Made by a program: the position numbers and the translations under genes
Part shown: piece by piece, positions 18,047 to 37,364 of the stretch
Layout: each line of letters opens with the position of its first letter
Position numbering within the stretch: position 1 is the first letter of the stretch
Origin: Tsuneonella rigui
GTDB taxonomy: Bacteria > Pseudomonadota > Alphaproteobacteria > Sphingomonadales > Sphingomonadaceae
DNA: 64,000 nucleotides
Assembly: GCF_003958625.1 (NCBI RefSeq)
Contig: NZ_RSEL01000028.1
Location: 1-64,000, forward strand
Reading direction: 5' to 3'
The notes under the pieces: generated by a model
Database searches by the model: none
What the model was told of the DNA's origin: nothing
Seen by the model: only the letters and a program-made list of their open reading frames with translations

Positions 18047-18377
18047 ATTCCCCTCCATGCTGTGCATCAGGTTTCGACCTCTCGATACGCGACTGGCGAT
18101 GATATCGAGCGAAGTCAGGCATCTGGAAATATTGGATTAACATCGATCCATAAGCTGTCGCGATGATCTGCGGGCACCTGTGGTGCATCCGCGTACCCTG
18201 CTGATCCGGCTGATCGGAGGCACCGGTCAGTCGCGGGTTTGACGCGCGCATCATCGCATAATCGGAGCTTATATTGGCATCCGGCGTCGGTATTTCCGTC
18301 GCGAGGGGCCTCCTGTTAGCCAAACCGGCGAATAAGCAGGCGCGTTCGAGAAAACGCGCGCACGGGCAGAGGTGAGA
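18047..18377. other. divergent promoter region between two TonB receptors
   Basis: No gene. It must hold promoters for both receptor operons and contains the LysR-type palindrome at 18258-18272. GGAGGGG and GAGGTGAG ribosome-binding sites lie at its two ends. Confidence 0.7.
18258..18272. promoter_or_regulatory. putative LysR-type operator, site 1
   Basis: ATAATCGGAGCTTAT: ATAA/TTAT inverted repeat with T-N11-A geometry. Reverse complement ATAAGCTCCGATTAT fits the shared pattern of the cluster. It is 106 bases before the rightward receptor and 212 before the leftward one. Confidence 0.5.
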
Positions 18378-20621
18378 ATGCGCGCAAGCAAGCTTCGGCA
18401 AGGTCTTTTGGCAGCAGCAGCGATGTCCAGTGTGGCTCTGGCCGACCGCGCATCCGCGCACACGCAGGACGCGCCACTCCCAACGTCGGCTGAGGGCTCG
18501 GCGGAAACGTCTGCTCCGCCCGACCAAACTCAGGCCAACGGATCGGAGCTAGAAGCGATTGTAGTAACAGCCCAGCGCCGCGAAGAGAATCTGCAGCGTG
18601 TGCCTATCACGGTCAACGCCGTAACCGCGCAGTCCTTACAGGCACAGGGCATCAAGAATACCGCCGATCTGAGCGTCGTAGTGCCTGGCGTGACGATCAC
18701 GCGCACGCTGGGTACGCCGCAATTGTATATCCGGGGCGTCGGCACACAGAACAGCGCGACTGGCGATGAATCAAGCAATGCGGTTTATGTCGACGGCGTG
18801 TACATCGCGGCCATGCCGGCAGGGTTCCTGTCCTTCAATAATATCGAACGCATAGAAGTGTTGAAGGGACCGCAGGGCACTTTGTTTGGCCGCAACGCGA
18901 CAGGCGGTTTGGTACAGATCGTTACGCGGGAGCCCACCTTCACCCCGGTTGCCGAGGCGGAGATCGGGTACGGTAACTACGGCACGCTCACCGCCGACCT
19001 GTATGGTACCACCGGCCTTTCCGACAATGTCGCGATCGATCTGGCTTTTCATGTCGACAACCAGGATCAAGGCTTTGGCATCAATCGGTTTACAGGAAAC
19101 GAGGCTAACCAGTCGCGGAGCCTGGCGGTGCGGTCGAGCCTGCTTTGGCAGATCGATGAAACCCTCAAGGTCCGGGTCGCGGGGGATTATGCCAATTACC
19201 TCGAAACGCAGAGCACCGCGCGACAGATCGTGCCTGGAGCAGTAGGCGCCGGCGGAACGCGAAACGTGGGTGGGTTCTACGATATCAACAGCGAAATCGA
19301 TCCTTACAACAAGGGCAAGTCGCACGGAGGCAGTTTCAACATCCGTAAAGACTTCAATTCCGTCAGTGTGACGAGCATCACTGCCCTGCGTAAATATGAT
19401 AGCTTCTTCCTCGCGGATCAGGACTCTACACCGCTTTTCAGTTCAATTGGAGCGCCCGATGGCTCATTGCGCCAATTTAGTCAGGAACTCCAGGTACAGT
19501 CTCCTGCGTCCTCCAAAATTAAATGGATGATGGGCGCATTTTACTTTACCGCGCAAGCGGAACAGCTGCTGACCTTCACTGGCTCGTCTCAGGCGGCACT
19601 CGGAGGTTATCTCAATCGCTTCGGCGAGATGGATACGCAATCCATCGCAGGCTACGCGCAGGCGACCATCCCGCTCGGCGAAACGACCGACGTAACGACC
19701 GGCTTCCGCTACACCAGCGACACGCGTTCGCTGGTCGCGCGAGACGAGACAGGCGTTGGCGTCCGCAACGTCATCGATACCGAAAAGACATGGTCGCAGC
19801 CCACATGGCGCCTTGCAGTCAACCAACGGCTCGGCGACGATTCGATCCTTTATGCGAGCTACAGTCGAGGTTTTAAGAGCGGAGTTTATAACCTCAACAA
19901 TACGACAAATCCTGCAGTAGCGCCTGAAAAGATTGACGCATATGAGGTTGGTACCAAAAATGACTTTCTCGATAGAAAGCTGCGGGTAAACCTCTCAAGC
20001 TTCTATTACGACTATCAAAACATCCAATTGGTGGTGCGAACAGCGGGCACGTCGCAGATTTTCAACGCAGCGTCTGCAGAAGTGTATGGATTGGATGCGC
20101 AGGTGGTCGCCCTGCCAGTCCAAGGACTAACGCTGCGCGCCGACGCCAATCTGCTGCATGCGGAATACCGGCGCTTCCCAAATGCGCCGGCGACATTCCC
20201 CAGCCCAGCAACCTGTGCAACTAACCCGCCATCGCCGTTGCCGGGACCGCGCACGGGCGGCAACACGACCTGCGCGATCGACGCTGCCGGCAACACAATG
20301 ATCCGCTCGCCAAAGCTCACGTTGACCATCGGCAGTTCATACCAATTCTACACACCGGTGGGACTCTTTCAGATGGACGCATCTCTTTACCACAATTCAG
20401 GCTTCTTTTTCGAACCAGACAACCGCATCCGGCAGCAGGCCTATGACCTTGTGAGTGCTCAACTCAGCTGGACCTCTAGGGACGATCGCTATCGCGCTCG
20501 CTTATGGATCCGAAACGCGTTCGGCGAACAATATTATTCTGCAGTCAGCACCTCGCTGGGCGATGCCGGAACTGCGGGCGCACCGCGCACCTATGGTGCC
20601 AGCATCGGTGTGAAATTTTAA
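18378..20621 (+). CDS. TonB-dependent outer-membrane receptor
   Basis: A 747-residue receptor. Signal peptide ends ADRASAH, TonB box AIVVTAQRRE, plug with LYIRGVGTQNS, NAVYVDGVYIAAMP and IERIEVLKGPQGTLFGRNA. It is clearly paralogous to the leftward receptor, including the loop with PSPATC and GGNTTCAIDAAGN. ATG at 18378 with AGGTGAG just upstream; a GTG lies two codons earlier. Followed after 75 bases by the MFS gene in the same direction, suggesting an uptake operon crossing outer then inner membrane. Confidence 0.95.
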   Translation: MRASKLRQGLLAAAAMSSVALADRASAHTQDAPLPTSAEGSAETSAPPDQTQANGSELEAIVVTAQRREENLQRVPITVNAVTAQSLQAQGIKNTADLSVVVPGVTITRTLGTPQLYIRGVGTQNSATGDESSNAVYVDGVYIAAMPAGFLSFNNIERIEVLKGPQGTLFGRNATGGLVQIVTREPTFTPVAEAEIGYGNYGTLTADLYGTTGLSDNVAIDLAFHVDNQDQGFGINRFTGNEANQSRSLAVRSSLLWQIDETLKVRVAGDYANYLETQSTARQIVPGAVGAGGTRNVGGFYDINSEIDPYNKGKSHGGSFNIRKDFNSVSVTSITALRKYDSFFLADQDSTPLFSSIGAPDGSLRQFSQELQVQSPASSKIKWMMGAFYFTAQAEQLLTFTGSSQAALGGYLNRFGEMDTQSIAGYAQATIPLGETTDVTTGFRYTSDTRSLVARDETGVGVRNVIDTEKTWSQPTWRLAVNQRLGDDSILYASYSRGFKSGVYNLNNTTNPAVAPEKIDAYEVGTKNDFLDRKLRVNLSSFYYDYQNIQLVVRTAGTSQIFNAASAEVYGLDAQVVALPVQGLTLRADANLLHAEYRRFPNAPATFPSPATCATNPPSPLPGPRTGGNTTCAIDAAGNTMIRSPKLTLTIGSSYQFYTPVGLFQMDASLYHNSGFFFEPDNRIRQQAYDLVSAQLSWTSRDDRYRARLWIRNAFGEQYYSAVSTSLGDAGTAGAPRTYGASIGVKF

Positions 20622-20696
20622 AGCGGCCCCAAGAGAACTGCGCATTTGCGCCGGTCTGGTCATCAAGGCCCCAGGGAAGCTGAAGGAGAGCAGAAC

Positions 20697-21980
20697 GTGC
20701 AGGCGCAGGAATCGCGCGAATACCGCTACTACCTGCTATTCGTCATGTTAATCGGTTATTCGCTTAACTTCCTCGACCGGCAGATCATCAGTATCTTACT
20801 TCAGCCCATCAAGGAAGACCTCCTACTCAGCGATACGATGCTCGGATTCCTGTCCGGACTCTCATTCGCGTTATTCTATGCCACGCTCGGAATTCCAATT
20901 GCCGCCTTGGCTGACCGCAAATCGCGAAGGGCAATCGTGTCAATCTCAATGGCGGTCTGGAGCGTGATGACTGCTGCCTGCGGCTTGGCGCAGAACTTTT
21001 TCCAACTTCTGCTGGGGCGTTTCGGCGTGGGAATTGGGGAAGCGGGTTTCACGCCGGCGACCTTGTCGATGATCGCCGACACTTTCCCAAAAGAACAGCG
21101 CGCGACCGCGGTAGCCGTCACCAGCGCCGGGGCCATGTTAGGGGTTATGCTGGGGCTGGTCATCGGAGGATACGTTGCGCAGCACTGGGGGTGGCGGACC
21201 GCGATGCTGGTTGCGGGTGTGCCGGGGATCCTTTTTTCCGCTGTCTTCTGGTTCACTGTCCGCGAGCCGGTACGCGGCGCGAGCGATGGCATATCGGCGA
21301 AATCAGAAACGTCCTCTCTTTGGACCAGCGCCGCAATCTTGTGGCGGATTCGCTCCTTTCGGTTCATCGCGCTGGGCGCGGGCGTTTCGAGCGCGTGTGT
21401 TTACGGCTATTCCATCTGGCTCCCTTCGCTGCTCGCAAGGTCCTATGGGATGAAGCCGGCCGAGATCGGCCTGCTGCTCGGCCCCGTGCTGGGCGGCGTT
21501 GGCGTAGTTGGCGCCTTGGTGAGCGGCTATCTCTGCGATCGCCTGATGAGGCGCGATCTTCGTTGGACGATCTGGATACCGGCGATCGCATCGGCAGTCG
21601 CGATGTGCTTCGCAATCGCGAGCTTGCTGACGTCGAGCGCCCCGCTTCTTATCGGGCTGTACGCGTTTGCCTATTTGTTGAGCATGTTTTTCAGCGCATC
21701 GACCAGCTCGATTATCCAGTCGCTAGTGCCGATCGAGATGCGCGCCACGTCCGTTGCATGGAAGATGTTGATGGTAAACCTCGTCGGCTTGGGCCTTGGT
21801 CCGCAGGCGATTGGGGCGTTGAGCCATTTCTTAAGTGCAAGAGGCGATGATGAATCGCTACGCACCGCTATGCTGATGGCCACTCCGATCTTCTTGATCC
21901 CGACGGTTCTGTACCTGATCGCAGCACGTACCATGCGTGAAGACGCCGACCGTATCACCGGGCCCGCGCCAACGCACTGA
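20697..21980 (+). CDS. MFS transporter (spinster/aromatic-acid type)
   Basis: A 427-residue inner-membrane carrier with about 12 hydrophobic segments. The N-terminus YSLNFLDRQIISILLQPIKEDL and GRFGVGIGEAGFTPA are typical of sphingomonad spinster-like MFS proteins. ADRKSRR is the loop 2-3 motif. The start is GTG at 20697, preceded by AAGGAGA; no good ATG exists. Downstream of the receptor, it probably moves the substrate or an intermediate across the cytoplasmic membrane. Confidence 0.92.
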   Translation: MQAQESREYRYYLLFVMLIGYSLNFLDRQIISILLQPIKEDLLLSDTMLGFLSGLSFALFYATLGIPIAALADRKSRRAIVSISMAVWSVMTAACGLAQNFFQLLLGRFGVGIGEAGFTPATLSMIADTFPKEQRATAVAVTSAGAMLGVMLGLVIGGYVAQHWGWRTAMLVAGVPGILFSAVFWFTVREPVRGASDGISAKSETSSLWTSAAILWRIRSFRFIALGAGVSSACVYGYSIWLPSLLARSYGMKPAEIGLLLGPVLGGVGVVGALVSGYLCDRLMRRDLRWTIWIPAIASAVAMCFAIASLLTSSAPLLIGLYAFAYLLSMFFSASTSSIIQSLVPIEMRATSVAWKMLMVNLVGLGLGPQAIGALSHFLSARGDDESLRTAMLMATPIFLIPTVLYLIAARTMREDADRITGPAPTH

Positions 21981-22196
21981 CCCGCAACGGCGATCGCGCT
22001 CGAACAGCCAGACCGTTGTTCTTGTATCGTATCTGCTTGGTCCAAACTGGTGCAATTTGTATTCCCGAAGGAGCAGCGGCACAGGGATGACATACCCTCG
22101 AACGATATTTCACCCAGTCGCGGTGAGGCTGCCACCACGCCGTCGTACCGACCGCATTTCGGGCCGGACTGATCGCACTTCACAGGGATCCTGCGA

Positions 22197-23495
22197 ATGA
22201 CCGCCTTCATGGATAGCCTATGTGAGTTTGTGCAGACCGGCACGATAGATAGGTGCGCGCTACGCGAGGCGCGGACAGCTGTGGCCGACACGGTCGCAGT
22301 TTCGCTGGCAGGATGGTACGAGCCCTCAAGCCAGGCGGTTCGGCGCGCTTATGGCGCCAGCGAAGACCCCCGCTACGGACGGTCTGGACTCGATATCGAG
22401 CATGAGGCGCTTGTGCATGGGACAACCGCCCACTCTCTCGACTATGACGACGTTCAGCTGACGAGCGTCACGCACCCGTCTGCCGTTGCGGTACCGCCGC
22501 TGCTGGCCATTGCGGCCCGCGAGCCGCAGGTGCGTCCGCGCGTCCTCCCTGCGCTGGCGATCGGCAATGCCGTAAATGCCGCTCTGGGCGATGCGTTTGG
22601 GTTCAATCATTACGACCGGGGTTGGCATGCGACCTCAACGATCGGACCAATCGCGGCAGTCGCTTCAATCTGCCATCTATTCGAAAGGGACGAAGCGACC
22701 TTGCGGAATGCGCTGGCGCTTGCAGCTGCTCAGTGCGGAGGATTGCAGCGGAACTTTGGGACGCTGTCTAAGCCCGTTCATGCCGGATTCGCTGCGGCAG
22801 CCGCGGTGCGGGCGGCGCGGCTGGCACAATCAGGAGTTACCGGCGCGCACGATGTCTTCGGCCCGCGCGGATATTTCGACCTGTACGGTGATCCTGAAAC
22901 GGCGCTGCGCGCGGCGAAGGTTCGGTTCCCTATCGACAAACGGCTCATTTCGCGCAAGCTTTACCCGTGTTGCTATGCAACCCATCGCATGATCGGCGCC
23001 GCGATCGCGGCCCATCGGCAGGTCGGCGACACACTCCCCTACAATGCGAGGATCACGCTCGACGTGCCCTACGGCACCATGCGGCCCTTGCAGATTATCG
23101 ATCCGAAGAACGGCAACGAGGCGAAATTCTGCGCCACTTATGTGACCGCGGTTGCGCTGCAGCAAGGCCGCGTCGTGCTGTCCGACTTTACCGCCGACGC
23201 GATCGATCGGGTCACGATCAGAGACATGATGGCGCGGATCACGGTCATCGAAGAACCACTCGAAACCACCACGCCGGCCGGCCTGAACAATGGCGCCGTG
23301 ACCCTTTCGATCCTGGCGGGCAACAAGCTGATCGATCAGCAGGTCTGCGACGCCTATCCCGGCTCACCCGAGGCACCTGCGACCGACCAACAAATGATCG
23401 ACAAGTTCCGCGACTGCCTTGAAGTTTACGGCCGCGCCGCGCCCTCGATCACCTACGCGGAATTTGAAGCCGGGGTGGATGAACTAACGCGCTGA
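22197..23495 (+). CDS. MmgE/PrpD family protein
   Basis: A 432-residue protein of the 2-methylcitrate dehydratase/cis-aconitate decarboxylase/iminodisuccinate epimerase superfamily. Landmarks: ARTAVADTVAVSLAG, HGTTAHSLDYDDVQ, HPSAVAVPPLLA, GWHATSTIGPIAAV, KPVHAGFAA, and KLYPCCYATHR. The family dehydrates, decarboxylates or isomerises tricarboxylate-like compounds. Here it could act on a carboxylated ring-fission intermediate; this is inference from context only. It may be co-transcribed with the MFS gene, 216 bases upstream. Confidence 0.88.
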   Translation: MTAFMDSLCEFVQTGTIDRCALREARTAVADTVAVSLAGWYEPSSQAVRRAYGASEDPRYGRSGLDIEHEALVHGTTAHSLDYDDVQLTSVTHPSAVAVPPLLAIAAREPQVRPRVLPALAIGNAVNAALGDAFGFNHYDRGWHATSTIGPIAAVASICHLFERDEATLRNALALAAAQCGGLQRNFGTLSKPVHAGFAAAAAVRAARLAQSGVTGAHDVFGPRGYFDLYGDPETALRAAKVRFPIDKRLISRKLYPCCYATHRMIGAAIAAHRQVGDTLPYNARITLDVPYGTMRPLQIIDPKNGNEAKFCATYVTAVALQQGRVVLSDFTADAIDRVTIRDMMARITVIEEPLETTTPAGLNNGAVTLSILAGNKLIDQQVCDAYPGSPEAPATDQQMIDKFRDCLEVYGRAAPSITYAEFEAGVDELTR

Positions 23496-23535: not shown

Positions 23536-24534
23536 TCAGTCCATGAACGCGCGGGGGTACACCTTGCGGGCGTTCCCTTCAAAGATCGCGTGGCGGTCAT
23601 CATCGCTCAGCCAGTCGATCTGTTCGATGAGAGGCTTCAGGTCATCAAAGTCGAAGCCGGTCTCCGGGTTGTGAACACTGCCTGTCCCCGGGCTCTCAGT
23701 GCCGAACAAGCAACGGTCCACGCCCACGGTGCGGAACAGCAGCTCCAGCGAATCCTTGGAATAGTTGCAGGTGTCGAAATATAGCTTGCGCAGCTTTTGG
23801 TCGAACGTCTCGGGCTCCTTCCTGCGCAGCGTCCATGCACGGAACCGGCCCATTTGGTATGGAATGGCCCCGCCGCCGTGCGCGACCACGATCCTGAGCT
23901 TTGGGAAATCTTCGAAGACTCGCGATTCCAGTAGCGAGATGATCGCGATGCTTTCCTCATTTATGAATTTGAGCGTGTAGGACTCGCGCGGGCAACAACT
24001 GCTGGCGGAGTGGATCAGTGCAGGTACGTCGAGCGCGACCATCCGTTTGTAAAGGGGATACCAAAACGGATCGCCAAGTCCCGGCGGCGGCGTTGCATCG
24101 CCCTCAGTCGGATCGGGATTGAGCAGACAACCAACAAAGCCCAGTTCGTTGACGGTGCGTTCCAGCTCTTCCAGACAGTTCTCGGGGCTCGCGTCGCGAT
24201 ATTGCGGCAACCCCGCTACACCACGCAGTCGGTCCGGGAACATCTGGACTTGTCGGTGGATCACGTTGTTCACCGATCGGTTCCACTCCAGCCCGACTTT
24301 CGACGGTTTGGTAGAATGCGCCATCATGTACGGGCGAGGCGAGATGAACTGAACATCGGTACCGTTCTTGTCCATCAACCGGATGAGGCCTTCGGTCGCC
24401 TTGCGCAGAATCTCGTCGCTAGGACCGGCGTAATTCTGACGGAGCACTGGGTTGGCGCGAGCCGAAACAAGTTCGACAAAGTGACGGTACAATTCGTCAG
24501 GCATCACTATGTGGGCATGACTGTCGATGATCAT
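23536..24534 (-). CDS. amidohydrolase, 4-oxalomesaconate hydratase (LigJ)-like
   Basis: A 332-residue TIM-barrel amidohydrolase. It resembles LigJ of the protocatechuate 4,5-cleavage pathway in metal-site His6/His8 (IIDSHAH), GFVGCLLNPDP, DPFWYPLYKRMVALDVPALI, VAHGGGAIPY, YFDTCNYS and the ending RHAIFEGNARKVYPR. LigJ hydrates 4-oxalomesaconate to 4-carboxy-4-hydroxy-2-oxoadipate, the substrate of RraA/LigK-type aldolases, three of which lie nearby. The ATG at 24534 follows GGAG by seven bases; a TTG one codon earlier is possible. ACMSD-like decarboxylases are a more distant alternative. Confidence 0.82.
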   Translation of the reverse strand: MIIDSHAHIVMPDELYRHFVELVSARANPVLRQNYAGPSDEILRKATEGLIRLMDKNGTDVQFISPRPYMMAHSTKPSKVGLEWNRSVNNVIHRQVQMFPDRLRGVAGLPQYRDASPENCLEELERTVNELGFVGCLLNPDPTEGDATPPPGLGDPFWYPLYKRMVALDVPALIHSASSCCPRESYTLKFINEESIAIISLLESRVFEDFPKLRIVVAHGGGAIPYQMGRFRAWTLRRKEPETFDQKLRKLYFDTCNYSKDSLELLFRTVGVDRCLFGTESPGTGSVHNPETGFDFDDLKPLIEQIDWLSDDDRHAIFEGNARKVYPRAFMD

Positions 24535-24921
24535 CAATCAACTCCATCTAGTATATATCGGAGCGTCGGTGCGTTCTCGGCCACAAAAGGATCCGGGCGC
24601 ATAGACAGCTGTACGACCGTTACGCGTCTGCGCGTGGCTCAAAGTTGCGCTCGTGGTTGTCTCATTCTCCGAAGTGGAAGCGTAGCGGTGGCTTGAAGCC
24701 TATCCTCCTGCCCTAACCGCCTCCCCGCACGTCAAAAAAATACTGTGTGTCGATATGCACATAAGATCCGCTTATATCCTGCGTTTCGATCACAGCAGGA
24801 GATCCGCCATTTGGTTCCTCGCAGATAAGCGCCGCCGATGTGACCAGTGTAAGATGCTATTGGTCGCGAGCGACTGAAATCCGCAGGCTTACCTCCGAGA
24901 GAGACTACGCGGGAGATCGAG
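24535..24921. other. divergent promoter region, LigJ-like and alcohol dehydrogenase
   Basis: About 390 bases without a gene. It holds the LysR-type palindrome at 24762-24776 and the ribosome-binding sites of both flanking genes (GGAG; GGGAG). Confidence 0.65.
24762..24776. promoter_or_regulatory. putative LysR-type operator, site 2
   Basis: ATAAGATCCGCTTAT: a perfect ATAAG-N5-CTTAT inverted repeat with T-N11-A spacing. It is the most symmetric of the five related sites; 146 bases upstream of the alcohol dehydrogenase and 228 upstream of the LigJ-like gene. Confidence 0.55.
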
Positions 24922-26004
24922 ATGCTAGAAATTCAGGCTCAGATCGTCGAAAAGCCACACGGTCCTTTCGTGAAAAGAACGCTGCGCCTGGGGGCGCCAC
25001 GCGAGAATGAAGTTCTTGTTCGCCTGGTTGCGACGGGCATCTGCCACACCGATCTCGCCATCGCCGCGCAATATGCGCCGTTTCCCCTGCCCGCCGTTCT
25101 CGGCCATGAGGGCGCCGGGATTGTGGAACAAGTCGGTCCCGGCGTCGCACACGTCGCCAAGGGGGACCATGTGGTGCTGACCTTCGCGGCTTGCGGAGAT
25201 TGTCTCAACTGCGAGTCGGACCATGACGCCTACTGCCACGAATTTGGTAAGCTGAATCTCGCCGGCCATCGGGCTGATGGAACTACGCCATTTGAAGAGG
25301 ATATCGCGGGCTTCTTCTTTGGGCAGTCATCGTTCGCCGATTATGCCGTCGTCAATGCAGCGAGCTTGGTGAAGGTTCGCGATGATGTCGATCTACGGCT
25401 ACTCGGACCCCTTGGCTGCGGCGTTCAAACCGGCGCGGGTGCAATCCTCAACGTGCTCAAACCGCATCCTCAATCGGTAGTGGTCGTCTGCGGCGTAGGT
25501 GCGGTAGGGGCAGCTGGAATCATGGCTGCGAAGCTCCGCAGTTGCCATACGATAGTCGCCGTTGATCGCGTAGGGAGCCGGCTCGATATCGCGCGCCAGC
25601 TAGGCGCCAGCATGGTCGTCGATACTTCGACCGAAGACTTGTCTGCAGTGATCGACTCTCTGGGTGGGGTCGATGTCGCGTTTGACACGACGGGCAACCC
25701 CGATCTCATTCACATGCTTATCGAAAAGCTGCGCTCTAACGGGACGTTTGCTTTTGTGGGCGGTAGCCCGCGGGACGCGAAAGTGTCAGTCCCCCTGCCC
25801 TTCCTGGTCCCAGGACGGAAGATCATGGGGATTACTGAAGGAGATTCCCATCCTGCGACCTTTATCCCGCATCTGGTCGATCTATACGCCGAGGGCCGAT
25901 TGCCGCTTGAGCTGATCTCAAAATGCTACCCGTTCGACGAAATGGAGAACGCCGTGAACGATGCTCGCAGCGGCGTAACAATCAAGCCTATTCTAATTTT
26001 CTAG
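24922..26004 (+). CDS. zinc-dependent alcohol dehydrogenase (aryl/terpene type)
   Basis: A 360-residue medium-chain dehydrogenase. Catalytic zinc ligands: Cys41-His42 in GICHTD, His62-Glu63 in GHEGAG and Cys in GPLGCGVQTGAGA. Structural zinc: C91, C94, C97, C105. The Rossmann motif is VCGVGAVGAAGIMAA with VAVDRV. Closest in style to benzyl-alcohol and geraniol dehydrogenases. ATG preceded by GGGAG. Plausibly oxidises the alcohol made by the P450 to an aldehyde for the ALDH at 14385. It is the only rightward gene in the middle of the cluster. Confidence 0.93.
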   Translation: MLEIQAQIVEKPHGPFVKRTLRLGAPRENEVLVRLVATGICHTDLAIAAQYAPFPLPAVLGHEGAGIVEQVGPGVAHVAKGDHVVLTFAACGDCLNCESDHDAYCHEFGKLNLAGHRADGTTPFEEDIAGFFFGQSSFADYAVVNAASLVKVRDDVDLRLLGPLGCGVQTGAGAILNVLKPHPQSVVVVCGVGAVGAAGIMAAKLRSCHTIVAVDRVGSRLDIARQLGASMVVDTSTEDLSAVIDSLGGVDVAFDTTGNPDLIHMLIEKLRSNGTFAFVGGSPRDAKVSVPLPFLVPGRKIMGITEGDSHPATFIPHLVDLYAEGRLPLELISKCYPFDEMENAVNDARSGVTIKPILIF

Positions 26005-26064: not shown

Positions 26065-26379
26065 TCAGTCCTCCGGAGCAATGACGACCGCCATGCCGTC
26101 CATCGCTTCGGTGATCACCACTTGGCAGGACAGTCGCGACCGTTCGTTGCGGTGAGAGGAACCGTCGAGGAGGCCAAACTCGTCCTCGCTTACCGGTGCG
26201 AGCACAGCCGCAGCGTCGACTTCGACGAACACATGACACGTCGCGCAGGAACAACAACCGCCGCATAGCGCGAGTACCTCGTCGATGCCGGCATTGCGGA
26301 TATTCTCCATCAGCGACAGTCCCGGCGTGCCGTCGATGATCAGCTGATCACCCTCGCGTGTCGTAAGATTTATCTTCAC
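26065..26379 (-). CDS. [2Fe-2S] ferredoxin, adrenodoxin/putidaredoxin type
   Basis: A 104-residue ferredoxin. Cluster ligands C39-x5-C45-x2-C48 and C84 (RLSCQ) follow the vertebrate-type/putidaredoxin pattern; the region also has extra Cys42 and Cys43. Such ferredoxins carry electrons from an FAD reductase to a bacterial P450. It is the last gene of the Rieske/dioxygenase operon, 21 bases after the aldolase, and would pair with the reductase at 13049 and P450 at 38521. Confidence 0.93.
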   Translation of the reverse strand: MKINLTTREGDQLIIDGTPGLSLMENIRNAGIDEVLALCGGCCSCATCHVFVEVDAAAVLAPVSEDEFGLLDGSSHRNERSRLSCQVVITEAMDGMAVVIAPED

Positions 26380-26400
26380 GTTTGATACGTTCCCTGAGAC

Positions 26401-27716: not shown

Positions 27717-27729
27717 CTTCTGCTCCTGA

Positions 27730-28719: not shown

Positions 28720-28735
28720 GGTTGAAACTCCCGCA

Positions 28736-29017
28736 TCAAAGGTCCAGCGTCAGTTCAGACGACCGCGCGCGCGAGCAGCACGGCATGATCCGCAGCATCG
28801 CATCGTCTGATCGCCGGTCGATGATCTGGTCACGGTGAAGCGGTTCGCCTGCCAGCACGCGCGTCTCGCAAATCCCGCATGTGCCGGCCGTACAGGAATG
28901 CGGAACGACAACGCCAATCCGCTCGAGCGCCCGCAGGATAGTATCATGACGGCCGACCTTCACCACGGCGCCGCTGCTGGCAACGCGGACAAGAAATTCG
29001 GCCGGGGGGGCAGTCAT
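28736..29017 (-). CDS. stand-alone [2Fe-2S] ferredoxin, phthalate-dioxygenase-reductase type
   Basis: A 93-residue plant-type ferredoxin domain: C42-x4-C47-x2-C50 (SCTAGTCGIC) and C80 in MPCCSRARS, with the EPLHRDQII stretch and terminal LDL typical of the C-terminal ferredoxin domain of VanB/phthalate dioxygenase reductases. In those proteins it is fused behind an FMN/NAD reductase module; here that module is absent. It overlaps the upstream Gfo/Idh/MocA gene by ATGA and probably feeds electrons to the Rieske oxygenase. Confidence 0.9.
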   Translation of the reverse strand: MTAPPAEFLVRVASSGAVVKVGRHDTILRALERIGVVVPHSCTAGTCGICETRVLAGEPLHRDQIIDRRSDDAMLRIMPCCSRARSSELTLDL

Positions 29018-30207: not shown

Positions 30208-31541
30208 TGCGCTGGCTCTTCGGACCTCTGGGGCACCGTGAATTCCTCGATATGCTGGCTGCGAAGTTCATCGAAGTTAGCAATGTCGGAAAGCTTACCT
30301 ATCGCGCGGACTCCAAAATCGGCGCGAAAGGGCTCCGCAGGCTCATTTCCCTCGGCAAGCGCGCGCGCCATGCCGATCAGTCGCCGCCGCATCCGGCCAA
30401 TCGCCTCGTCCGAACCCACCAGATGCTCGCGGGTGCGGTCGACCACCCTTGAGCCTGGGACCATACCCATCGACTCCTGCAGCGCGCGATCCTGCTCGTT
30501 CGCCCCCCAGATGCCAGTGAAGTTATAGCCGCTCTGCAACGCGCGATCGAGCAGATAGTCGTTGTCGACATTGGCTTGCGGTAGATAGGTATCGATCGGC
30601 GCGGCCTCGCCCAGCCGGACGATGCCACGCTCCAGCCGAGGCGGAAAAGCAACTCCGCTCGCCATGTAGCTCTTTTCGTCTTCGTTAATTGGACGATCTA
30701 CACGGTAATAGAAGTTGAACGTCGTTACATTGTCGTCGTCGATGGGCACCCAGGCCCTTCCGCCACCTTCGGCGAACTCACCCACACCGCGGGGGATGAG
30801 ACTGAACATGGGCACCATCCACTGTGTGACGCGCCAGTAGTTCGCCCCGCTGGCATGGGCGCGACGGGCGCCATACAGAAAGCCGTAATCCGTTTCGCGA
30901 AGAGTGATGTCCGGCGCCGCGTCGTCAAACGTCTCGGTACCGCCGCCCTTAATTGGGTTTGCTTCGGGCGCGTAAAAGCGATGCAGCCAGCTGATGTGGG
31001 CGCTGTCGAGCTCCCCCTCGAGCCCGGCAAGCCAATTGCTGCGCTGGATCCACCGGGACGCATGGGAATGACCGGGGGGCACCATCGCAATTTCCAACCG
31101 CGGGAACGGCGGTTGTCGATCCTTGGGACCCATATAGACCCAGACCACCCCACCCGCTTCGCGCGTTTTATAGGATTTGAGGCCTACCCGGCTGCGCGCG
31201 GTCTCGTTGTTGCCCCGCGGGATGCTGGGGATGTCCACGCAGTTGCCGTCAACGTCGAACTTCCACCCGTGATAGGGGCAACGGATACCGCATTCCTCAT
31301 TCCTGCCAAAATACAGCGGCGCTAGCCGATGTGAGCAGAACGCGTCTATAATCCCGGTGTCACCGTTTGAATCGCGGAAGGCGAGTAAATCCTCATGCAG
31401 AATTCGCAGGCGAACCGGCGCGCCGTCGCGTTCGAGTTCCGCACTCGTCACCGCAGGCAGCCAAAAGCGCCGGAACAGTTCCCCCATTGGCGTTCCCGCT
31501 CTGGTGCTGGCGAGCAGATGGTTATCTTCTTTGGTCAACAT
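30204..31541 (-). CDS. Rieske non-heme iron oxygenase, phthalate 4,5-dioxygenase type
   Basis: A 445-residue single-type oxygenase subunit. Rieske ligands C69, H71 (CSHR) and C88, H91 (CPYH). Non-heme iron site: D179-x2-H182-x4-H187 in ELDSAHISWLHR. The N-terminal LTKEDNHLLASTRAGTPMGE is typical of the phthalate dioxygenase branch, which acts on aromatic acids. First gene of an operon with Gfo dehydrogenase, ferredoxin, LigB, two aldolases and ferredoxin. A LysR-type palindrome lies 274 bases upstream. Confidence 0.93.
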   Translation of the reverse strand: MLTKEDNHLLASTRAGTPMGELFRRFWLPAVTSAELERDGAPVRLRILHEDLLAFRDSNGDTGIIDAFCSHRLAPLYFGRNEECGIRCPYHGWKFDVDGNCVDIPSIPRGNNETARSRVGLKSYKTREAGGVVWVYMGPKDRQPPFPRLEIAMVPPGHSHASRWIQRSNWLAGLEGELDSAHISWLHRFYAPEANPIKGGGTETFDDAAPDITLRETDYGFLYGARRAHASGANYWRVTQWMVPMFSLIPRGVGEFAEGGGRAWVPIDDDNVTTFNFYYRVDRPINEDEKSYMASGVAFPPRLERGIVRLGEAAPIDTYLPQANVDNDYLLDRALQSGYNFTGIWGANEQDRALQESMGMVPGSRVVDRTREHLVGSDEAIGRMRRRLIGMARALAEGNEPAEPFRADFGVRAIGKLSDIANFDELRSQHIEEFTVPQRSEEPAQ

Positions 31542-31818
31542 AACAGCCTCTTCCGTAGTTTGCCGACCGGCAACTTGCGCGACTGATCAGACGCAATCGT
31601 CACGCCGAACGAAGCGGGTCTGGTTAGGCGCATTTCCGCAAGCGGTCGAAGAACGGCAGCTTTACGAGACGGCGCCAGTCCGGATGGTGCGCCAGGGAAG
31701 GTATAAACCGCTGCCTACCGTGACCTGACCCCTCCGCCTTCTCAACCTCGCATGGATCCAATTCTGTCTATCCCCCGACCTTGACGCTCGGAAATACTGA
31801 CTCCCAATAGAAACATAA
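31542..31818. other. promoter region of the Rieske operon
   Basis: About 280 bases without a supported gene, between RidA and the Rieske oxygenase. A putative LysR-type operator lies at its far end. Nothing else was recognised. Confidence 0.6.
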
Positions 31819-31829
31819 TCAGGGCTTAT
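31815..31829. promoter_or_regulatory. putative LysR-type operator, site 3
   Basis: ATAATCAGGGCTTAT; reverse complement ATAAGCCCTGATTAT. ATAA/TTAT inverted repeat with T-N11-A spacing, overlapping the RidA stop codon and 274 bases upstream of the Rieske start. Confidence 0.45.
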
Positions 31830-32217
31830 TTGCATCGCTCAGGACCGCCAGTGCCTCGCACTGGATCGCCATACTCGGCGGCAAGTCATAGATCAGGACA
31901 TGCCGGGCGGGCCGGGATTGTGGGTCGGGAAAGCTACGCAGCCAGCCCGCATTGATGATGGGGCGAAGCTCGTCGCTTCGCAGCCATACCGTGACCTTGA
32001 GGACATCGGCGAGTCGACCTCCCACCGCCTCTAGGACCGCGGCGAGATTGTCGAACATCAGGTCGGCTTGCGCCTGCGGATCGTCAGGAATATCACCTTT
32101 CACACGATCAACGCCCCGGATGCCTCCGGTTGCGACGAATGGACCAATACGCGACACAGTCGGAATCGGCAGGCTGCCATGTGCCAGTCCGGCAACGTCG
32201 ACGCTTCGCCGGCTCAC
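31819..32217 (-). CDS. RidA/YjgF family protein
   Basis: A 132-residue Rid-family protein: VATGGIRG near the start, FDNLAAVLEAVGGRLADVLKV in the middle and SRPARHVLIYDLPPSMAIQCEALAVL at the end. The family hydrolyses enamines/imines or, in aromatic pathways, deaminates 2-aminomuconate; many members have other roles. The usual C-terminal Arg of deaminases (PxRSxR) corresponds here to SRPARHV. It overlaps aldolase 3 by ATGA. Confidence 0.85.
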   Translation of the reverse strand: MSRRSVDVAGLAHGSLPIPTVSRIGPFVATGGIRGVDRVKGDIPDDPQAQADLMFDNLAAVLEAVGGRLADVLKVTVWLRSDELRPIINAGWLRSFPDPQSRPARHVLIYDLPPSMAIQCEALAVLSDANKP

Positions 32218-32858
32218 GCGAGGTTCTTCAAGCGAGCAGGGGTCTTCAAACCGTAGATAGAAAGTGTCGTTTCACCCCGTTTCAACCGACTGAAAATCTC
32301 TCGCTCGTTCTTGTCACGTGACTCGCCTAGTTCAATCGCCGCCTCCGCCGCCTGCGCAGGCAGCACCACAACGCCGTCGTCATCGCCAAACAACAGGTCA
32401 CCCCGGTTGATGTGCACGTCACCGATCGTGACGGGTTCGCCAAGCGACCCATGACCAGCGAGATTCTTACCTGTCCCCCTGATGCACGCTCCCATCGAAA
32501 AAACTGGGAATCCCAGCGCAAGTATCTGCTGCGTGTCGCGCACACCTCCAGTGATCACAAGCCCGGCCAGCCCGCGCGCCTGTGCGGCCACGGCCATTAC
32601 TTCGCCCCAATAGCCAAACTCCGCGTCGTCGGTTGAGACAACAAGAACGTCGCCCGGCGCCGCGGCATAGATCGCGTGGTGCAACCAAAGGTTATCGCCC
32701 GCCGGCGAAAGCACTGGGTAGGCTCGGCCGCACACGGTTACCCCGGGCGCATGCGGTTTGATGGAGGAAGGGAGCGAACCAATGCGCCCTGCCGCCTCGT
32801 GCAAGGTTGCCGTAGAACTCCGGGCTGCCCGGGTGATCAGTGCATCGGATATGCTCAT
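32214..32858 (-). CDS. RraA/LigK-like aldolase 3
   Basis: A 214-residue RraA-family protein with WGEVMAVAAQARGLAGLVIT, GGVRDTQQI (Arg-Asp pair) and GDLLFGDDDGVVVLP. It forms a two-gene unit with RidA (ATGA overlap). It is the third member of the family in 7 kb and differs from the other two, suggesting a distinct substrate. A proton-independent regulatory (RraA) role is less likely in this context. Confidence 0.85.
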   Translation of the reverse strand: MSISDALITRAARSSTATLHEAAGRIGSLPSSIKPHAPGVTVCGRAYPVLSPAGDNLWLHHAIYAAAPGDVLVVSTDDAEFGYWGEVMAVAAQARGLAGLVITGGVRDTQQILALGFPVFSMGACIRGTGKNLAGHGSLGEPVTIGDVHINRGDLLFGDDDGVVVLPAQAAEAAIELGESRDKNEREIFSRLKRGETTLSIYGLKTPARLKNLA

Positions 32859-33034
32859 CCAACAGCCCCTGTGACCTCTTCGACCAAGGTCGGTTTTTCG
32901 TTTACCTCAGGCGTCGCCTCCATCGAGCGCCAAGACCGCCATTGCAGTTTGCTGCCCCCGCGGCCCCGTACCCTAGCCAGCATCATGTTGGGTCCCTGTA
33001 AAATCACGACGTCACCTTCAAAGCCGATATGCTC

Positions 33035-34192
33035 TCAACGCCGTGCCAATTGCTCGACCTTACCATTGTCCGCGCCCAATTCTGGCGCGGCTGTGCGAAC
33101 CTGCGGGCGCATCCCATCGAAGCGTAGCGGCAGCGCTACCAGCGACATTTTACCGTCGGGAGTGGGCTGAAGCATGCCCAGCGCGTGCGTCTGCGGGTGC
33201 TCGATCACTTCAGTCGGAGACTGCAGAGGCGCGCAAGGAACGCCCACGGCAGTCAATGCGTCCACCCACTCGGTTGCGTCTCGGCTCCCGATCTCAGCTG
33301 CGATCAGGCGGTTGAGCTCGGTGCGGTTGCCCACCCGGTCAGCGTTGGCCATGAATCGCGGATCTTTGGCCCATTCCGGCTTGCCGAGCACATTGCACAT
33401 GCGACGGAACAGATTGTCGTTGCCCGCCGCAATCACCAGATAGCGATCACGCGCGCGAAACGCACGGTACGGGGCGAGCATCGGCGTTTCCGAACCGCTC
33501 CGCCCCGCATCGCGACCGGACGCCATGCTGTTGGCTAGCGGGATATTCATCCATGCCAGGCCGGTTTCATAGAGCGAGGTACTAACGGCGCACCCCTCGC
33601 CAGTCTGCGCACGTCGGGCAAGCGCCGCGAGGATGCCGATGACGCACCACAGGCCAGAGCCCATGTCGATGATCGAAGGGCCGACGCGGACTGGTGGCCG
33701 CTCCGCTTCGCCCGTCACCGCCATGATGCCGGAAAAGGCCTGCACCAGCGGATCATAGCCCGTATGGTGCTGCAGCGGGCCCACATCGCCGAACGCGCCC
33801 AGACTGCAATAAATCAGCTGGTCATTCGCGCGACGCAGTACATCGGGGCCGATACCTAGCTTTTCGACTAGGCCAGGCCGCAGGTTCTGGACGAGCACGT
33901 CCGCAGTGGCGGCGAGTTTGACAAGCCGGGCCACGTCGGAAGGATTCTTCAGGTCGAGGCTGACCGAGAGCTTGTTCCGGTTCAACGTTTGAAAAACCGC
34001 GGACTGTCCCTCCCAGAATGGCGGCCCCCAGCTTCGCGCATCGTCGCCGCCATTCGGATTCTCGATCTTGATGACAGTGGCACCCAGGTCGGCGAAAATC
34101 TGGCCGACATAGGGGCCGGACACGCTGTGACCGATTTCGATCACCACCAGTCCAAGCAAAGGCTGTGCAGACGTATTCGCGGACTCGACCAT
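33035..34192 (-). CDS. CaiB/BaiF family CoA transferase
   Basis: A 385-residue class III CoA transferase. Landmarks: VIEIGHSVSGPYVGQIFADLGA, VIKIENPNGGDD, NRNKLSVSLDL, and catalytic Asp147 in TGYDPLVQAFSG. It moves CoA from an acyl-CoA donor to a carboxylate, activating it for beta-oxidation. The ATG at 34192 has GGAG about ten bases upstream. It is followed in the same strand order by acyl-CoA dehydrogenase, lyase and hydratase genes upstream, forming the CoA branch of the cluster. Confidence 0.92.
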   Translation of the reverse strand: MVESANTSAQPLLGLVVIEIGHSVSGPYVGQIFADLGATVIKIENPNGGDDARSWGPPFWEGQSAVFQTLNRNKLSVSLDLKNPSDVARLVKLAATADVLVQNLRPGLVEKLGIGPDVLRRANDQLIYCSLGAFGDVGPLQHHTGYDPLVQAFSGIMAVTGEAERPPVRVGPSIIDMGSGLWCVIGILAALARRAQTGEGCAVSTSLYETGLAWMNIPLANSMASGRDAGRSGSETPMLAPYRAFRARDRYLVIAAGNDNLFRRMCNVLGKPEWAKDPRFMANADRVGNRTELNRLIAAEIGSRDATEWVDALTAVGVPCAPLQSPTEVIEHPQTHALGMLQPTPDGKMSLVALPLRFDGMRPQVRTAAPELGADNGKVEQLARR

Positions 34193-34318
34193 GAAAACAC
34201 TGCTCCTATTCGCGTTCGCGAGCACATCACGGCAGGAACCCCCGCCGTAGAACTGCAATTAATTTGAGAGGCTAGCGAACCGAGGTCTCGCCAAAAAATA
34301 CAGAGTGATGCTAGCGCT

Positions 34319-34333
34319 ATCAGGGGAGCTTAT
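34319..34333. promoter_or_regulatory. putative LysR-type operator, site 4
   Basis: ATCAGGGGAGCTTAT; reverse complement ATAAGCTCCCCTGAT. It matches site 1 at 12 of 15 positions but the distal half is weak. It lies 127 bases upstream of the CaiB gene. Confidence 0.35.
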
Positions 34334-34344: not shown

Positions 34345-35517
34345 TCAATAGGATCGTGGCATTCCCAGCATATGCTCGCCGACATACGCGAGGATGAGGT
34401 TGGTCGAGATCGGAGCGATCTGATAAAGACGCGATTCACGCCATTTGCGCTCGACGTCATACTCGACAGCGTAGCCAAATCCGCCATGAGTCTGGAGACA
34501 CGCTTCGCCCGCGGCCCACGCGGCCTCGGAGTTGAGCAGTTTGGCCATGTTTGCTTCGGCGCCGCAATCCTGCTTAGCGTCATACAGCGCGCAGGCCTTT
34601 TTCAGCATCAGTTCGGCAGCTTGAAGTTGGACATGGCCGCGTGCAATGGGGAATTGCACGCCCTGGTTCTTTCCGATCGGCCGATCGAACACGACGCGCT
34701 CGTTCGAATAGTTTACTCCCCGCTCCGTGAACCAGCGGCCGTCGCCTTGGCTTTCCGCCGCCACCAAGATGCGCTCCGCGTTCATACCAGTTAGGATGTA
34801 ACGGAAACCCTTCCCCTCTTCACCAATCAGGCTCGAAGCGGGGATGCGCATGTCGTTAAAGAAGACTTCGGTTGTGTTGTGGTTGACCATTGCTCGCAAT
34901 GGCCGGATCTCTAGACCGTTGCCCAGAACTTTGCGCATGTCGACTAGGAATACCGATAACCCCTCGGTCTTGCGCTCGACCTGGTCGAGCGGCGTCGTGC
35001 GGGCGAGCAGCAACAGCAAGTCGGAGTAAAATGCGCGCGACGTCCACACCTTCTGCCCGTTGACGACATATTCGTCCCCGTCCCGCACAGCCGCCGTGCG
35101 CAACTTAGTCGTGTCCGACCCGGTCGTGGGCTCGGTCACTCCAAAGGCTTGGAGGCGCAGCTTTCCCGCTGCAATCTGCGGCAGATATTCCTGCCGTTGC
35201 GCTTCGGTCCCGTGCCGCAGCAACGTGCCCATCGTGTACATCTGGGCATGGCACGCGCCAGCGTTGCAGCCCATGGCGTGAATTTCTTCGAGGATTACTG
35301 CTGCAGCGCGGAGTGGCAGACCCGACCCGCCATACTGCTCGGGGATCAGCACCGCAAGATAGCCCTGCTCGGTCAAGGCGTTGACGAACGCCTCGGGATA
35401 AGCGCCATCTTCTTCGAGGGACTGCCAATAGCTTCCCGGGAAATCGGCGCAGATGCGCCGCACCGCGTCGCGAAGTTCGGGATAGTCCGGCGCTGCGGAC
35501 ATTGTCACGTCGTCCAT
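34345..35517 (-). CDS. acyl-CoA dehydrogenase
   Basis: A 390-residue flavoprotein desaturating an acyl-CoA. Landmarks: YGGSGLPLRAAAVILEEI, FGVTEPTTGSDTTKLRT, VVNGQKVWTSRA, RILVAAESQGDGRW, QTHGGFGYAVEYDVERKWRE. Full-length for the family. Electrons would go to ETF; only a 30-codon EtfA remnant is present in the window. Lies between the CaiB and HMG-CoA-lyase-type genes. Confidence 0.95.
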   Translation of the reverse strand: MDDVTMSAAPDYPELRDAVRRICADFPGSYWQSLEEDGAYPEAFVNALTEQGYLAVLIPEQYGGSGLPLRAAAVILEEIHAMGCNAGACHAQMYTMGTLLRHGTEAQRQEYLPQIAAGKLRLQAFGVTEPTTGSDTTKLRTAAVRDGDEYVVNGQKVWTSRAFYSDLLLLLARTTPLDQVERKTEGLSVFLVDMRKVLGNGLEIRPLRAMVNHNTTEVFFNDMRIPASSLIGEEGKGFRYILTGMNAERILVAAESQGDGRWFTERGVNYSNERVVFDRPIGKNQGVQFPIARGHVQLQAAELMLKKACALYDAKQDCGAEANMAKLLNSEAAWAAGEACLQTHGGFGYAVEYDVERKWRESRLYQIAPISTNLILAYVGEHMLGMPRSY

Positions 35518-35537
35518 CTGGGTCCTACCATGCAGAG

Positions 35538-36452
35538 TTAAGCGGAGGCTCGCTCAAGGCGCGGCCCCGCCTTCATGACCTGGCCAGGCAAGGTCCGGCC
35601 GAAGGCAGCCTCGACCTCCTTTGCCGTCTCGATTAATGCTGGCAGGTCGATTCCGGTCCGAACGCCTAATTCGTTAAGCAAGTAGACTAGGTCCTCCGTC
35701 GCGATGTTCCCGGTCGCGCCAGCTGCGAAAGGGCAGCCGCCCAGTCCGCCGATGGAAGATTCGAACCGGTCGATACCTAGTGCAAGGCCAGTCGTGACGT
35801 TCACTAATCCGATCCCGCGGGTGTTGTGAAAATGGAGCGCGATCGGCAGATCGGGGAAGTGCGCTCGAATAGCGCCGACTACCGCCTCGACGATCGGGGG
35901 GGTGGCCATACCGGTCGTATCACCGAGTGATACCGCATCGGCGCCCATTGCGGCGTAGCCTTCGATGACGCGTAGCACGGCCGCGGGCGCGACGTCGCCT
36001 TCGAACGGGCAACCAAAGGCAGTCGCTACCGCGCCGCTGAGTGGGACTCCGCCGTCGCGCGCGATCTCGCCGATCTCTTTCAGCCTCGAAAGGCTTTCAG
36101 TGACGCTGCGGCGGACATTCTTCTGGTTGTGAGTGTCGCTTGCGGAAGCAAAAACCGTGATGCGGTCGATGCCCGCTGACACTGCGCGCCGCGCGCCGTT
36201 CACATTAGGGACCAAGGCGCTAAGCTCCGCACCCAAGCCGCGTAGGCGTCGGACCAACTGGGGAGCATCGGCTAGCTGGGGTACTGCAGCGGGCGACACA
36301 AACGATGTCACCTCGATGTGCCGTAGGCCAGCCGCGATCAACCCCCGACCGATGTGCTCCTTCGCTTCGACCGATAGGATGCGGCTTTCCATCTGGAAAC
36401 CGTCTCGCATGCCGACTTCGGTTAGACGCACAGTCGAGGGCACCGGCGTCAC
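35538..36452 (-). CDS. HMG-CoA lyase family enzyme
   Basis: A 304-residue DRE-TIM metallolyase: TEVGMRDGFQ (the divalent-metal/Arg motif), SLGDTTGMATP, LHFHNTRGIGLVN and the lyase signature SIGGLGGCPFAAGATGNIAT with catalytic Cys. The family performs retro-aldol cleavage of 3-hydroxy-3-methylglutaryl-CoA or analogues to acetyl-CoA plus a ketoacid. In the cluster it could cleave a tertiary 3-hydroxyacyl-CoA made by the hydratase, whose gene overlaps it by ATGA. Confidence 0.93.
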   Translation of the reverse strand: MTPVPSTVRLTEVGMRDGFQMESRILSVEAKEHIGRGLIAAGLRHIEVTSFVSPAAVPQLADAPQLVRRLRGLGAELSALVPNVNGARRAVSAGIDRITVFASASDTHNQKNVRRSVTESLSRLKEIGEIARDGGVPLSGAVATAFGCPFEGDVAPAAVLRVIEGYAAMGADAVSLGDTTGMATPPIVEAVVGAIRAHFPDLPIALHFHNTRGIGLVNVTTGLALGIDRFESSIGGLGGCPFAAGATGNIATEDLVYLLNELGVRTGIDLPALIETAKEVEAAFGRTLPGQVMKAGPRLERASA

Positions 36453-37252
36453 AGCCCCTTGAACGCTGGCGCGCGCCGCTCGATCGCCGCACGGATGCCC
36501 TCGCGCCGATCCCAGGTTGGCACGGTCTGGTTATAGGCAGCGATCTCGATGATCAGCCCGCTGCGTCGATCCACTTCGCCGCCGCGCATGATCGCCAGCT
36601 TCGCCTGCCGGACGGCGATCGGGCCACCGGCGGCGATCGTTCGCGCCGTTGCGATCGCGGCGTCGAGCAACTTGTGCCGCGGGACCACGCGGTTGACCAT
36701 GCCCCATTCCAGCGCCTGCTCTGCGGCAAAAGGCTGCGCCGCGAGGATAAGCTCCTTGGCCCGCGCCGGACCCACTGCGCGCGTGAGCGTCTGCGTACCG
36801 CCACCGCCGGGGATGATACCCAGCGTCGTTTCGGGCAGGCGGAAGCGCACGCCGTGGGCGGCATAGATGAAGTCGCATGCCAGCGCGAGCTCGCACCCAC
36901 CGCCATAGGCCGCGCCGTTCACTGCAGCGATGACCGGTATTGGGCAGTCGAGAATTGCATGGAACGCGTGTTCAAACAGCACGTGTTGCGACAGCCATGC
37001 CGCATCATCCATGCCGTCGCGCTCCTTCAAATCGCCACCGGCACAAAAATGACGCTCGCCCGCTCCCGTGATGACAATGCAGCGGACCGCCCCAGGGTCG
37101 AGATTGATCGCACTGAAGAGGGCAAGGATATCGCGCGCCATTTGGGTATTGAGGGCGTTAGCCGCATCCACGCGGTCGAACCGTACCAATAGGGTGTGCG
37201 GCTCAGGAACTTCGCACTGAAGCGTAGCAAAAGATGGCGCATCCGTGCTCAT
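36449..37252 (-). CDS. enoyl-CoA hydratase/isomerase family protein
   Basis: A 267-residue crotonase. Oxyanion-hole segments HFCAGGDLKERD and AAVNGAAYGGGCELALACDF, and PETTLGIIPGGGGTQTLTRA with the conserved catalytic-Glu region. It hydrates an enoyl-CoA. The ATG at 37252 was chosen with GGAGGAG upstream; the frame extends to 37315 without family similarity. First gene of an ECH-lyase unit; a LysR-type site lies 98 bases upstream. Confidence 0.93.
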   Translation of the reverse strand: MSTDAPSFATLQCEVPEPHTLLVRFDRVDAANALNTQMARDILALFSAINLDPGAVRCIVITGAGERHFCAGGDLKERDGMDDAAWLSQHVLFEHAFHAILDCPIPVIAAVNGAAYGGGCELALACDFIYAAHGVRFRLPETTLGIIPGGGGTQTLTRAVGPARAKELILAAQPFAAEQALEWGMVNRVVPRHKLLDAAIATARTIAAGGPIAVRQAKLAIMRGGEVDRRSGLIIEIAAYNQTVPTWDRREGIRAAIERRAPAFKGL

Positions 37253-37349
37253 CGCTTGCGATAACTCCTCCGATGCGCCGCGCGAACTCCTTCCCTTTTG
37301 ATACGCCGGTTTCACCCCCTAACGCCAAATAGCGTTTGAGCCTGTTTCG

Positions 37350-37364
37350 ATAAGCCCTCGCTAT
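37350..37364. promoter_or_regulatory. putative LysR-type operator, site 5
   Basis: ATAAGCCCTCGCTAT, with T-N11-A spacing. Its reverse complement shares AGGGCTTAT with site 3 (12 of 15 positions). It lies 98 bases upstream of the hydratase start and touches the LysR stop codon. Confidence 0.45.

Follow-up and report, generated by a model that had tools for sequence, protein, structure and literature searches.

In a 64,000-nucleotide stretch of the Tsuneonella rigui genome (contig NZ_RSEL01000028.1, positions 1 to 64,000; hereafter the window), a block of aromatic and acyl-CoA catabolic genes contains a single gene for a LysR-type protein. It is highly probable that this protein is the pathway-specific activator of seven promoters in the block, which it would recognize through a two-part operator. 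The operator consists of a 15-bp palindrome, 17 spacer bases and a box of the form [ACG]TATT[TG]. An earlier note, made from the sequence alone, had proposed that five 15-bp palindromes of T-N11-A geometry tie the catabolic operons into one regulon; that proposal is supported and strengthened in outline by the present sequence analysis, with four corrections. All five 15-mers occur in the window as spelled and have the geometry described, the second starting at 24761 rather than at 24762 as reported. The set itself is larger, however: two further sites, at 18150-18164 (minus strand) and 24825-24839 (plus strand), had been overlooked, and all seven 15-mers conform to T-N11-A within a dyad. The sites and their boxes are as follows.

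18150-18164, minus strand: recognition palindrome ATCGCGACAGCTTAT, TonB receptor 1 operon; 21.2 bits with the five-site model, sixth in the window; box at +17
18127-18132, minus strand: downstream box ATATTT of the 18150 site, putative right half of the activation site and -35
18258-18272, plus strand: recognition palindrome ATAATCGGAGCTTAT, TonB receptor 2, MFS, MmgE/PrpD
18290-18295, plus strand: downstream box GTATTT of the 18258 site
24761-24775, minus strand: recognition palindrome ATAAGCGGATCTTAT, facing the amidohydrolase (LigJ-like), with TATT on the amidohydrolase side
24738-24743, minus strand: downstream box GTATTT of the 24761 site
24825-24839, plus strand: recognition palindrome ATAAGCGCCGCCGAT, facing the zinc alcohol dehydrogenase; 20.0 bits with the five-site model, seventh in the window
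24857-24862, plus strand: downstream box CTATTG of the 24825 site
31815-31829, minus strand: recognition palindrome ATAAGCCCTGATTAT, Rieske operon
31792-31797, minus strand: downstream box GTATTT of the 31815 site
34319-34333, minus strand: recognition palindrome ATAAGCTCCCCTGAT, CaiB, RraA, L-PSP
34296-34301, minus strand: downstream box GTATTT of the 34319 site
37350-37364, minus strand: recognition palindrome ATAGCGAGGGCTTAT, enoyl-CoA hydratase, HMG-CoA lyase-like, acyl-CoA dehydrogenase; overlaps the LysR stop codon
37327-37332, minus strand: downstream box CTATTT of the 37350 site

A loose palindrome is weak evidence by itself, because it is enriched neither in the window nor in the genome. 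With two mismatches allowed, the window holds 32 matches against 26.4 expected, a count reached by 15 of 100 shuffles; with one mismatch, the genome-wide strand matches to ATAAGN6TTAT number 22 (11 + 11), against 36 (17 + 19) for a reversed control pattern. These counts are what would be expected if the palindromes were chance AT-rich words in the intergenic DNA of a 64% G+C genome, and we rejected palindrome counting alone as evidence. The 2,863,004-base genome contains exact ATAAGN6TTAT three times, each time inside the window and as a member of the set, and six of the 16 one-mismatch places fall in the window, five of them sites of the earlier note. The window is enriched in the half-site ATAAGC (23 matches against 13.2 expected; 0 of 100 shuffles).

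The site set stands out from chance through its second element, whose distance is fixed and which the earlier note had missed. With each of the five noted sites free to take either orientation, we looked over 60 bases, offset by offset, for any 4-mer common to all five. The only two that emerged, TATT at offset 18 and the overlapping ATTT at offset 19, always lay on the same side of the palindrome; 3000 sets of positions drawn at random from the window and 3000 sets of shuffled real flanks yielded none. A matrix was built from these five sites, with 15 + 6 columns and the spacer left unscored. In the window the five score 27.0-35.3 bits and rank first to fifth, followed by the 18150 site (21.2), the 24825 site (20.0) and then, at 14.9, the next position. 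When each of the seven was left out in turn, it ranked first among the window's non-training positions (18.6-29.7). As background we took 40 stretches of the same genome, picked by contig and position regardless of content, in which the best scores over 710,506 of 2,863,004 bases were 16.5 for the five-site and 16.4 for the seven-site matrix; the seven sites score 25.5-34.3 with the latter, which was trained on them. The motif thus does not recur at equal density in unrelated regions of the sampled genome, and NTATT at +17 is found, in either orientation, beside none of the 11 other genome places within one mismatch of ATAAGN6TTAT. A chance origin of the palindromes is largely refuted by the second element fixed at 17 bp, by the prediction of two extra sites, by the background sampled from the genome and by the loci of homologous regulators described below, and we regard it as exceedingly improbable.

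The spacer contributes a further constant feature. Its seventh base is A in all seven window sites though it was never scored, an all-A spacer column having a chance probability of about 1e-4, and TAT occupies +19 to +21 in the same seven. Together, A7 and TAT at 19-21 define a second box centred 21 bp from the palindrome centre, which reads ATn-N9-TAT in four of the seven. Judged from sequence, this box would provide an activation site at a fixed phase near the -35 region, as expected of a LysR-type operator. If transcription starts are placed 56 bases past the palindrome (our own placement), the palindrome centre falls at about -63, the predicted starts lie near 18094, 18328, 24705, 24895, 31759, 34263 and 37294, and the predicted leaders measure 27-218 bases; the value of -63, which depends on predicted starts and weak -10 elements, compares with a norm near -65 for LysR-type recognition sites. 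The layout is the conventional one of a LysR recognition site plus an activation site, as described for ThnR (PMC4834489).

Since the box lies on one side only, it gives every site a direction, and the directions reveal two intergenic regions that each hold two sites, one per direction. Two gene assignments change as a result. The 18258 site had been given to both TonB receptors, and serves the second; the first is served by the 18150 site. Similarly, the 24761 site had been placed before a LigJ-like/alcohol dehydrogenase pair, and it keeps the amidohydrolase, while the dehydrogenase has its own site at 24825. The distances between sites and genes, previously given as 98-274 bases, become 83-274 across all seven sites once the enoyl-CoA hydratase and CaiB genes are taken to begin at their likely starts, internal methionines at 37252 and 34192. 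The units below are predicted from same-strand adjacency, with gene names from Pfam and NCBIfam.

11484-18067, minus strand: predicted unit of the 18150 site; TonB receptor 1, aldehyde dehydrogenase, ferredoxin reductase, aldehyde dehydrogenase
18372-23495, plus strand: predicted unit of the 18258 site; TonB receptor 2, MFS transporter, MmgE/PrpD
23536-24537, minus strand: predicted unit of the 24761 site; amidohydrolase (LigJ-like)
24922-26004, plus strand: predicted unit of the 24825 site; zinc alcohol dehydrogenase
26401-31541, minus strand: predicted unit of the 31815 site; Rieske oxygenase (LigXa_C), GFO/IDH/MocA, LigB-type dioxygenase, two RraA-like aldolases
31819-34192, minus strand: predicted unit of the 34319 site; CaiB, RraA-like aldolase, L-PSP
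34345-37252, minus strand: predicted unit of the 37350 site; enoyl-CoA hydratase, HMG-CoA lyase-like, acyl-CoA dehydrogenase

Seven similar sites in one block could also have arisen if a single promoter segment had been copied repeatedly as the block was assembled, in which case the shared sites would reflect duplication and not regulation. Their spacers and flanks, however, have no common sequence beyond the palindrome, A7 and the box, and the sites at 31815, 34319 and 37350 run into or directly adjoin the end of the gene before them; we give this explanation very little credence. Two candidates for further membership were rejected. Upstream of the P450 gene an ATAAGC half-site does exist, at 39843-39848, as the earlier note had observed, but it lacks the second element, and membership of the P450 in the regulon is not supported: the region holds no two-part site, its best score over spacings of 14-20 bp being 13.4 bits and its score at 17 bp 7.9. 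Autoregulation of the LysR gene through this operator was likewise rejected, as no site lies upstream of that gene.

The regulator itself is encoded at the right of the target genes.

37361-38299, minus strand: LysR-type regulator, NAC/CynR-like; the open reading frame (ORF) extends to 38371, and Met 25 is the likely start from homologues

The start at 38299, proposed before, matches the aligned homologues. An N-terminal HTH_1 domain (PF00126, 75.1 bits) and a LysR_substrate domain (PF03466, 123.8 bits) place the protein in the LysR-type family; its fold is beyond doubt. Its best NCBIfam model is NAC (NF008410), at 258.7 bits below the cut-off of 309, followed by CynR (NF008416), at 143.2 bits below the cut-off of 277; because both scores fall short, it is neither NAC nor CynR by curated criteria. 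NAC recognizes ATA-N6-TnGTAT, and this site does not fit the window 15-mers, which end in TTAT, TCTTAT, CTAT-like or GAT. The best solved relative is BenM (3k1p, E 1.2e-21). No close orthologue was found in 397 genomes of the window's family, where the best other match is 32% identical, and a genome-contig search found none, returning one 28% relative; wider searches of the class (385 genomes), the phylum (398 genomes) and plasmids yielded relatives of up to ~45% identity.

These relatives connect the operator to the regulator. At 81 loci we searched the 300 bp flanking the LysR gene on each side with the window-derived matrix and a cut of 15 bits. The operator was found beside 10 of 16 homologues with at least 39.5% identity, 3 of 18 with 35-39.5% and 1 of 47 below that, against 0 of 16, 1 of 18 and 0 of 47 for a reversed-matrix control. 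A looser cut of 12 bits gave 11, 4 and 5 loci in the three classes, against 2, 1 and 1 reversed. The unscored A7 recurs in 13 of the 14 matches. Two of the matches are Variovorax plasmids. In Variovorax, L059 has three operators round its LysR locus: upstream of the locus, 10 bases past the LysR ORF and before an SDR gene; the one just past the LysR stop repeats the arrangement in the window. The same locus shows a fourth operator-like match at 3567 (minus strand), with 20.1 bits, a GCATTT box and A at spacer position 7. In rhizobial homologues the operator occupies the divergent region between the LysR gene and an SDR-ABC transporter. The neighbourhoods of these Variovorax and rhizobial homologues encode biotin carboxylase/5-oxoprolinase-type proteins, LamB/YcsF, SDR proteins and amino-acid transporters, and no aromatic enzymes. 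Homologues that have the operator carry the annotation nac. At locus L167 (genome G971; same phylum, other class, guessed to be gammaproteobacterial), operators at 7731 and 8278 (minus strand), of 16.1 and 20.9 bits, lie close together just past a LysR homologue.

The converse arrangement, aromatic genes without the operator, is seen in G187, a genome of the same family and another genus (loci L047, 17423-20000, and L048, 1-8454). There, a single row of genes holds counterparts of the Rieske, GFO/IDH, amidohydrolase, LigB and L-PSP genes and of RraA, the last three times, together with a TonB receptor and an MFS transporter, and the aromatic set runs in one direction; among the loci with a Rieske homologue that we examined, this was the only one with the wider gene set. 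An IclR gene adjoins these genes. No LysR gene was detected beside them by tblastn at E 1e-20, a threshold that a remote LysR could escape, and no operator above background is present. Across L047, L048, L056, L057, L058 and L060 no match came near the scores of the window sites, the best reaching 15.3 bits. Conservation of the operator with the catabolic genes is rejected by these Rieske-homologue loci (G187, L056, L057, L058 and L060), which are without it. Because homologues with unrelated targets have the operator and G187 does not, it goes with the LysR lineage and not with the catabolic genes.

The same comparison bears on whether the regulon, though real, might be bound by a regulator encoded elsewhere in the genome, leaving the block's LysR to control a neighbour or nothing. 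Five LysR-like matches are found in the genome itself (17 first-look candidates, five scored), and possession of the site extends beyond close homologues: at L022/L165 a regulator only 29% identical has a 24.9-bit site, 26 bases past its ORF and followed by a co-directional gene (next ORF 11775), a layout as in the window. Against another regulator stand the recurrence of the operator next to the LysR homologues of Variovorax, of rhizobia and of further bacteria, at loci whose targets differ (5-oxoprolinase, SDR, amino-acid ABC transporter), and the fall in its frequency as LysR identity drops. In the block, no other transcription-factor family was matched among the larger ORFs, those scanned, from 8.8 to 42.4 kb. 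We judge control by another protein unlikely.

Several observations weigh against control by the block's own LysR through this operator. The box was defined after the sites had been inspected, and the 4-mer controls were constructed to allow for that. The -10 elements are weak, with TA at positions 45-46 in only three of the seven sites. No site is present in the LysR promoter, which scores 2.3 bits at best, and the gene is co-directional with its nearest target, the enoyl-CoA hydratase unit, unlike the textbook layout. In LysR regulation a regulator divergent from its target, with a site overlapping its own promoter, is common in the family and not obligatory. Among the homologues, 6 of the 16 top-class loci fall below 15 bits; at L098 and L127 a degraded but recognizably related site survives, and L082 and L104 are without a convincing degraded copy. 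The 10 matches in this class are not independent, because six rhizobial ones (L061, L097, L128-L131) represent one lineage, and at L061 the 5-oxoprolinase operon of the homologue is not preceded by a second site. The 14th match, at L100, is without A7 and is probably false. Finally, a comparison of recognition-helix regions, covering 29 of the 81 loci, failed to separate site-bearing homologues from site-less enteric NAC-like ones.

Several LysR systems offer precedents. The CynR system of E. coli has 15-bp ATAA-n7-TTAT repeats with ATAAG half-sites, R1 and R2, centred at -66 and -44, and a third repeat at -34 (PMC5002191). Repeats of this type recur in the window, where the corresponding centres would lie 21 bp apart compared with 22 in CynR (PMC5002191); CynR controls one divergent operon through three repeats, whereas here there are seven promoters and a LysR gene that is not divergent. 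LigR, a LysR activator of protocatechuate 4,5-cleavage genes in Novosphingobium aromaticivorans and Sphingobium SYK-6, has targets that include ligK and, in SYK-6, ligJ, and a footprint from about -51 to -85 with a conserved TT-N-GC-N6-TTAT over T-N11-A (PMC12710314). Its right half, TTAT, stands in the same 15-bp frame as in the window sites. The left half differs, with GC at positions 4-5 in LigR and at 5-6 in the ATAAGC sites of the window; none of the seven sites starts with TT, and two have GC at 4-5. LigR also flanks two units, compared with seven here that include TonB receptors.

ThnR of Sphingopyxis granuli, the LysR regulator of tetralin degradation, acts at a minimum of four catabolic promoters, among them two in a close divergent pair, binds a primary site at -64 with a conserved secondary region, and requires the co-activator ThnY (PMC4834489). 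The block resembles this system in its several catabolic promoters, its close divergent pair and a predicted primary site, near -63, with a secondary region. We rejected the ThnR motif ATTTC (-49 to -45, ~15-19 bp from the primary-site centre) as the same element, since ATTT lies 27-30 bp away here. BenM and CatM of Acinetobacter act at three T-N11-A dyad sites, with site switching on inducer, and share the consensus ATAC-N7-GTAT (PMC6628147); the dyad is common to both systems, but none of the seven recognition palindromes of the window has that consensus. The mode of action is thus well known from CynR, LigR, ThnR and BenM/CatM, and the regulation is ordinary in kind and well-supported, with strong evidence. 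What is new, in a literature compared by topic, is the regulator, its operator, the seven-promoter extent including two TonB receptors, and the link to homologues.

On our best reading, the regulator is a NAC/CynR-like LysR activator whose recognition site is predicted at about -63 and whose activation site would cover -35. A LysR tetramer would bind one operator at each of the seven promoters. The recognition palindrome would be the high-affinity part, of ATAAGC-N5-TTAT type and T-N11-A geometry, in which one half is always near ATAAGC and the other may degenerate; a weaker activation site, centred 21 bp downstream, of the form A-N11-TAT and ending in [ACG]TATT[TG], would overlap the -35 element. 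An inducer, probably the pathway substrate or a ring-cleavage intermediate, may then shift the downstream dimer and activate, rather than repress, transcription. Going by the enzyme families, protocatechuate-, gallate- and methoxy-aromatic acids are conjectural candidates among aromatics. Uptake (the two TonB receptors and the MFS transporter) would thus be switched on together with ring oxidation and cleavage (Rieske, LigB, amidohydrolase and RraA aldolases), as would the aldehyde and alcohol dehydrogenases and a CoA branch formed by CaiB, acyl-CoA dehydrogenase, enoyl-CoA hydratase and the HMG-CoA lyase-like protein.

Other features of the region deserve mention. On the minus strand of the Rieske unit, two short frames (26067-26400 and 28742-29018) show ferredoxin-like cysteine spacing in translation. 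To the left of the catabolic block lie a serine recombinase gene and a DUF2924 gene (8837-11094), and to its right a DUF5681 gene and a ParB/N6-N4 methylase-like gene (40264-42419); these flanking genes suggest that the block is an integrated element of ~33 kb. No long end repeats were found for the block, the only candidate being a 16-base exact match inside coding DNA. Farther right, at 44930-47076, is a pair encoding a BlaI/MecI-like repressor and a BlaR1-like M56 peptidase.

With somewhat less than even confidence, we propose that NAC/CynR-like LysR proteins of alpha-, beta- and gammaproteobacteria share a rigid operator, made up of an ATAAG-type palindrome, A at +7, a box at +18 to +23 and a -10 element at about +44. 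A lineage of such regulators may have been recruited from amino-acid and 5-oxoproline metabolism to serve as the sole switch of a complete aromatic and acyl-CoA pathway on a recombinase-bearing block, with one operator for each of seven promoters, including those of both outer-membrane receptors. A list of palindromes becomes a sharp prediction: the seven fragments should bind, the P450 and LysR promoters should not, and the 24761/24825 pair should act as two separate promoters. The genes of one pathway, from uptake through ring cleavage to the CoA branch, are thereby delimited, which would aid the search for its substrate. A fixed second element combined with homologues that have unrelated targets also offers a practical route for assigning an operator to a rare regulator.

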